Positions 30,454-32,537 of a stretch of 52,627 nucleotides of DNA are shown piece by piece. The number at the start of each line of letters is the position of its first letter. The first letter of the stretch is position 1. The notes beneath the pieces are model-generated. The model did not search any database. It was given only the letters and a program-made list of their open reading frames with translations, and had not been told where the DNA came from. The DNA comes from Prolixibacteraceae bacterium. GTDB taxonomy: Bacteria > Bacteroidota > Bacteroidia > Bacteroidales > Prolixibacteraceae. Both the position numbers and the translations under genes were made by a program. The stretch lies in NCBI GenBank assembly GCA_016930365.1, contig JAFGGY010000027.1:1-52627 (forward strand), written 5' to 3'.

Positions 30454-31863
30454 ATGAAGAACACCTATTTCGATTTGATTGAACAAAGTTACTATTTCCC
30501 CCAGGAAGGCTTTGACCTACGCGACGGATACCTTACATTTCAAGGTATATCAATGAAGTATCTAATCGATAAATACGGTACCCCGTTTCGGTTTATTTAC
30601 CTGCCCAAAATTGGCGACCAGATAAAGAAAGCCCGCAACTTGTTTAAGCGTACCATGAAAAAATACAATTACCGGGGTCGCTATCATTATTGCTACTGCA
30701 CCAAATGCAACCACTTTTACCACGTAATTGGCGAAGCATTAAAAAACAATGTGAACCTCGAAACTTCATCGTCGTTCGATATTGACCTTATACGAAACCT
30801 GTATGCCGAGAAAAAAATCGATAAAAACCGCATACTTGTTCACAATGGCTACAAAACCGACGAATACCTCAAAAAAATAATTGATTTACAGGAAATTGGA
30901 TTCAAAAACTCCATTATAATACTCGATAGCACCAACGAGCTACACCGTATCGAAAAGCTGGCCAACGGGCGCAAGGTGCGCATTGGCCTGCGCATGGCCA
31001 TTAACGAAGAGCCACAATCGGCTTATTATACCTCGCGACTGGGAATAAGGCATGCCGAAATGATGAACTTTTTTGAGAAAAACATTAAAGACAACCCCAA
31101 TGTGGAAATGCGAATGCTGCACTTCTTTGTCGATTCGGGCATAAAAGACAGCTTATACTATTGGGGCGAATTTCAGAAAGCACTTACTCTGTATGTCGAA
31201 TTAAAAAAACAGTGCGAAACGCTGGTCGATTTCAACCTGGGCGGAGGCTTTCCTATTCGCAACCACATGGGCTTCGAATACAGCTACGAATACATGATCG
31301 ACGAGATTGTAAAAAACATAAAAGAGGTATGCGATAAAGAGGGTGTACACGAGCCCGATATTTACACCGAATTTGGGAAATACACGGTAGGCGAAAGTGG
31401 CGCAATTATTTTCAAAGTACTGGAACACAAACAGCAAAACGACACCGAAAGCTGGTACATCATCGACAACAGCCTGATGAATACCATTCCGGATGCATGG
31501 TCTATACACGAAAAATTTATCTTACTACCCGTAAATAAATGGGACAACGAATACAAACGGGTAAACATTGGGGGCATAAGCTGCGACCATTCCGATTATT
31601 ACAACTCGGAAGACTTTAACCAAGAGGTTCTTTTGCCATCGTTCGACGACAATGAGAAAGAGCCCCTTTACCTGGGCTTCTTTCACACCGGGGCATACCA
31701 AGATGCTATAAGCGGCTATGGTGGCATAAAGCACTGCCTTATCCCCTCGCCCAAGCACGTAATTATCGATCGCGACGAAAAAGGCAACTTTTTCGATTAT
31801 GTATATCGCAACGAGCAGTCGTCGGAAGAAATGTTTAAGATACTGGGATACAAGAAGAAATAA
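30454..31863 (+). CDS. Arginine-decarboxylase-like PLP enzyme (alanine-racemase fold type III)
   Basis: A 469-residue decarboxylase related to biosynthetic arginine and diaminopimelate decarboxylases. The PLP lysine is probably Lys84 in YCYCTKCNHFY, in the place of the usual YAVKAN. HNGYKTDEYL, LRMAINEE, the HFFVDSGI strand and NLGGGFPIRN form the phosphate-binding barrel, and GISCDHSDYYN matches the CDS/CDG active-site Cys motif at the dimer interface. The C-terminal FHTGAYQDAISGYGG is the conserved closing block. Arginine decarboxylase would give agmatine for polyamine synthesis; no agmatinase or other polyamine gene is adjacent, so the substrate remains inferred. A strong terminator follows. 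Confidence 0.83.
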   Translation: MKNTYFDLIEQSYYFPQEGFDLRDGYLTFQGISMKYLIDKYGTPFRFIYLPKIGDQIKKARNLFKRTMKKYNYRGRYHYCYCTKCNHFYHVIGEALKNNVNLETSSSFDIDLIRNLYAEKKIDKNRILVHNGYKTDEYLKKIIDLQEIGFKNSIIILDSTNELHRIEKLANGRKVRIGLRMAINEEPQSAYYTSRLGIRHAEMMNFFEKNIKDNPNVEMRMLHFFVDSGIKDSLYYWGEFQKALTLYVELKKQCETLVDFNLGGGFPIRNHMGFEYSYEYMIDEIVKNIKEVCDKEGVHEPDIYTEFGKYTVGESGAIIFKVLEHKQQNDTESWYIIDNSLMNTIPDAWSIHEKFILLPVNKWDNEYKRVNIGGISCDHSDYYNSEDFNQEVLLPSFDDNEKEPLYLGFFHTGAYQDAISGYGGIKHCLIPSPKHVIIDRDEKGNFFDYVYRNEQSSEEMFKILGYKKK

Positions 31864-31886: not shown

Positions 31887-31933
31887 AAAACGGTTGTAAA
31901 TGTTTTTTTTCAAAACATTACAACCGTTTTTTT
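31887..31933 (+). terminator. Rho-independent terminator of the decarboxylase gene
   Basis: CGGTTGTAA (31891-31899) pairs with TTACAACCG, and TGTTTT with AAAACA, with a single bulged A, giving a 15-pair stem followed by seven T residues (31927-31933). It ends 13 bases before the HAD gene. Confidence 0.88.
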
Positions 31934-31946
31934 AACTCTGCAACGT

Positions 31947-32537
31947 ATGGCAACCAAAATACCCGTTCATCCCGAAACCAAGGCACTAATTTTTGATATC
32001 GATGGCACGCTGGCCGATACCATGCCAGCACATCTTAAAGCATTTCGGAAAGTACTTTCGAAATACGGTATCGACTTCGACAAAGAATTATTTGACTCGC
32101 TGGCGGGAGTGCCCGTAGAGCCACAAATGATAATGCTAAAAGAGAAATTTAAACCCGACAATTTTGATCCGGCCCGGGTTGCGCGCGAAAAAGAAGACGA
32201 ATACTTTAAAAGCATAGAACAAACCCGCCCCATTGAGGCTGTTTACGAAGTACTGATGGCAAACCACGGCCGGCTGCCTATAGCCTGTGGCACCGGCGGC
32301 GACAAGCGGATAGCTACCCGCACCCTCGAAGTAATTCGGGTAAGCGACAAAATTGATGTACTGGTTACAGCCGACGATGTAAAAAACGGCAAACCAGCAC
32401 CCGACACCTTTTTGAAATGCGCCGAACAACTGGGCGTTGAACCCCGTTACTGCTAGGTATTCGAGGACGGAGAACCCGGCATACGAGCCGCAATTGCAGC
32501 CGGCATGAAAGTTACCGACGTTAGAAAATACGTTTAA
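31947..32537 (+). pseudogene. HAD-family phosphatase (YqaB/beta-PGM-like) interrupted by an amber codon
   Basis: The frame encodes a 196-codon HAD subfamily IA phosphatase, but codon 170 (32454-32456) is TAG. Before it lie motif I, LIFDIDGTLADT (Asp17, Asp19), a helical cap domain, motif II in ACGTGG, and motif III Lys in KNGKPAPDTF. After it the same frame continues with VFEDGEPGIRAAIAAGMKV, the Mg-binding motif IV and the closing helix seen in YqaB-type enzymes, then TAA. A single base change from TTG (Leu, which fits this strand) would explain it. The truncated 169-residue product lacks the motif IV acids and should be inactive. Neighbouring genes use TAG as a normal stop, so recoding is unlikely; a fresh mutation or a sequencing error is more probable. 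Confidence 0.85.

Follow-up and report, generated by a model that had tools for sequence, protein, structure and literature searches.

In the analysed stretch of DNA (hereafter the window, 52,627 nucleotides), the gene of an ordinary HAD superfamily phosphatase of the beta-phosphoglucomutase/YqaB subfamily is interrupted by a single TAG codon, which probably represents a recent nonsense mutation from CAG to TAG leaving an inactive product. On the forward strand, the frame is opened by ATG at 31947, meets TAG at codon 170 (32454-32456) and continues in frame to TAA at 32535-32537, and the complete ORF (31947-32537) counts 196 codons. When the stop at codon 170 is read as X, a product of 196 aa is obtained. 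No second copy of the site was found in a search across the assembly. The region contains the following features:

31887-31930, forward strand: strong hairpin resembling a terminator and followed by a T tract, separating the decarboxylase gene from the phosphatase start (z -4.7; comparison with the nearest relative)
31947-32456, forward strand: HAD phosphatase ORF of 169 aa as it ends under the standard code, covering motifs I-III with D17/D19/T116/K149 (ORF, HAD_2, TIGR02009 and invariant columns)
32454-32456, forward strand: premature TAG at codon 170, which is CAG in 19 of 30 relatives (frame and comparison with relatives)
32457-32537, forward strand: rest of the frame, 26 codons and TAA, HAD motif IV with E173 and D174 (alignment, D174 matching D170 of 1lvh)

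Homology searches with family profiles identified the 26 downstream codons as the C-terminal part that the shortened protein lacks, since both scores increased when X was placed at codon 170. For HAD_2 the score rose from 81.9 bits for the shortened product to 100.6 bits, and for TIGR02009 (PGMB-YQAB-SF) from 124.9 to 156.8 bits, thereby passing the curated cut-off of 153.35 bits. Residues D17 and D19 (motif I), T116, K149 (motif III), and E173 and D174 (motif IV) are all present in the frame and invariant among 31 aligned sequences, the last two being positioned 3' of the stop. Relatives from the same genus and family align over the stop position without gaps. These results bear out the sequence-only reading, which had placed a TAG at codon 170 of a YqaB/beta-phosphoglucomutase-like frame and had described motif IV and the C-terminus beyond it as intact. 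In the alignment to the beta-phosphoglucomutase of L. lactis (1lvh), D174 corresponds to D170, a ligand of Mg2+. Without this essential metal-binding residue, and with the end of the core fold missing as well, the 169-residue product is expected to be inactive. The family assignment stops short of the substrate, as the cut-off of the YqaB fructose-1-P/6-phosphogluconate phosphatase equivalog NF008000 was missed (159.2 against 215 bits) and that of the bPGM equivalog was missed also.

Among 30 distinct relatives, codon 170 is CAG in 19, GAA in four, CAT and CTG in two each, and CAA, CTT and GTT in one each, while neither TTG nor TAG occurs in any of them. The nearest relative, a Prolixibacteraceae MAG (L039/G001, 86% identical), carries CAG; the next-nearest (G006) has CTG, and residue 170 is therefore not strictly conserved. 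This comparison makes CAG (Gln) the very probable ancestral codon, and the simplest history is one C-to-T transition from CAG to TAG. It had been proposed earlier that the stop lies one base from TTG, which is arithmetically true, but a TTG (Leu) ancestor is not supported, because the relatives mostly have CAG and no close relative carries TTG.

Comparison of the window with the nearest relative gave a dN of 0.073 and a dS of 1.44 for the part 5' of the stop, and a dN of 0.080 and a dS of 2.7 for the part 3' of it; the dN/dS ratios are low on both sides, but rough, with dS near or above saturation. With G006 as outgroup, five changes downstream of the stop could be placed on the branch leading to the window, every one of them synonymous (neutral P of about 0.001-0.002, in a test of only these five changes). 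Accordingly, the 26 codons past the stop evolved under purifying selection on the window lineage for most of the branch, and the stop is either a late event on it or absent from the organism. As in a recent pseudogene, the lesion is missing from all 30 relatives and the rest of the frame is intact. The selection seen on both sides of the stop, with no decay elsewhere, agrees with the earlier view that the event is very recent or a sequencing error.

In the proposed course of events, the gene was at first an unremarkable HAD sugar-phosphate phosphatase gene of the beta-phosphoglucomutase/YqaB type. One nucleotide change, turning CAG (Gln170) into the stop codon TAG, would recently have affected it in the population that was sampled, that of a Prolixibacteraceae-like bacterium. 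Translation would then end after residue 169 with the loss of motif IV, including Asp174, and the inactive product would make the gene a pseudogene of very recent origin or a null allele that is still segregating. The base T would be genuine in the organism rather than an assembly error.

The second explanation, considered less likely, is a consensus or assembly error in this metagenome-assembled genome, with an intact gene in the organism and a T that is a miscall or the base of a minority strain. It is in line with the change of a single base, with purifying selection on both sides of the stop and no other decay, and an intact frame without a second lesion fits an error equally well; the assembly is also fragmented (216 contigs, 88.9% complete). 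Against it, no other in-frame stop was observed in more than 100 domain matches and in a 212-kb genome sample (window positions 1-52627 and contigs L137-L144), and the assembly is therefore not generally error-ridden. Furthermore, a plain C-to-T transition is the most frequent real mutation.

Functional readthrough or recoding of TAG, by a suppressor tRNA, by TAG read as Gln or by pyrrolysine, is highly improbable. The frame past the stop is indeed intact and conserved, and the replacement of a Gln codon by TAG recalls genetic code 15 (TAG = Gln), which PMC9523058 describes for some gut phages. However, the genes for release factors 1 and 2 are both present in the assembly, TAG serves as the terminator of 15 of the 85 long frames in the 212-kb sample, and no match to PylS above the cut-off was obtained. 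A CUA anticodon is carried by none of the 42 tRNAs found (in an assembly that is 88.9% complete), and TAG is not shared at codon 170 by any of the 30 relatives. Further interrupted genes were seen neither among the domain matches nor in the 212-kb sample. The HAD search of the whole assembly returned eight matches, with one TAG only inside the window phosphatase, and in-frame stops were absent from the seven other HAD_2, 49 ABC, 46 response-regulator and two sulfatase matches. A split-gene scan of the 212 kb yielded as its sole candidate a normal SusC/SusD pair in one frame, the sensitivity of the scan being limited, since its threshold of 6 would miss the phosphatase tail itself (5.5). None of the marks of TAG recoding or suppression, i.e. 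a CUA tRNA, loss of release factor 1 or many in-frame TAG codons, was thus encountered in the 88.9% complete assembly. Suppressor tRNA, TAG recoding and pyrrolysine were rejected on the grounds that release factor 1 is present, CUA tRNA and PylS were not found and TAG is a normal stop; for these reasons, and with no similar interruption elsewhere, the readthrough option raised earlier is unsupported. It is even harder to credit that an unassembled or near-cognate tRNA inserts Gln at the TAG, giving both a short and a full-length phosphatase. Readthrough, if it were real, would be a rare case among Bacteroidota, yet no observation made here suggests it.

Two partial tRNAs at contig ends, missed by ARAGORN, were recognized by eye as Arg(CCT) and Pro(TGG). 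A weak-scoring tRNA-like sequence at a contig start (L134, G000:C2:12-85) was called Phe(aaa), not CUA, and probably represents either a degenerated tRNA or an artefact of the assembly edge.

As for the cause of the mutation, a Dcm-like 5-methylcytosine hotspot can practically be dismissed. At the site, the nearest relatives have TGCCAGG, in which C-CAG-G forms CCWGG; the mutated base is precisely the (second) C that would be methylated by an enzyme of the Dcm type and would then deaminate to T, and the incomplete genome leaves room for a third C5-methyltransferase. The two C5-methyltransferases that were found adjoin Eco47II-type and NgoBV-type nucleases, which recognise GGNCC and GGNNCC, respectively, and neither of these sites covers the mutated position. 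CCWGG shows no depletion (381 occurrences against 368 expected), whereas GGNCC is reduced to about half of expectation in the 212-kb sample. Given this methyltransferase context and the undepleted CCWGG, the hotspot is unsupported, and a plain C-to-T change suffices. The two enzymes belong to type II restriction-modification pairs, L082 (G000:C155) with the Eco47II-type and L086 (G000:C166) with the NgoBV-type nuclease. In the same 212-kb sample, CTAG falls far short of expectation (72 seen, 311 expected), and GATC is depleted as well (536 seen, 1323 expected).

The upstream hairpin was rejected as a cause of the loss, because it is shared by the nearest relative, where one pair differs by a compensatory change and the phosphatase is intact. 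The hairpin ends about 16-20 bases 5' of the phosphatase start, leaving little space for a separate phosphatase promoter. The upstream neighbour (30454-31860) encodes a PLP-dependent decarboxylase of the Orn/DAP/Arg type. This decarboxylase is 97% identical to its counterpart in the nearest relative, against 86% for the phosphatase, and the two genes thus have quite different evolutionary rates.

A recent nonsense mutation in the phosphatase gene remains the preferred reading, and the case most likely reflects ordinary gene loss (or an assembly error) and not a new decoding mechanism. Its value is chiefly for annotation, where the gene is best labelled as probably a young pseudogene or an assembly error, with Gln, not Leu, as the ancestral residue. 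The window gene shares all four HAD motifs with the TIGR02009 subfamily, with PRK10725 YqaB and with the structures 1lvh and 3kbb, aligning to them from end to end, and it differs from the beta-phosphoglucomutase/YqaB subfamily by the single TAG at codon 170. With young bacterial pseudogenes and nonsense null alleles, it has in common a single stop, the lack of further decay and a recent position on its branch, and no difference from young bacterial pseudogenes is known.
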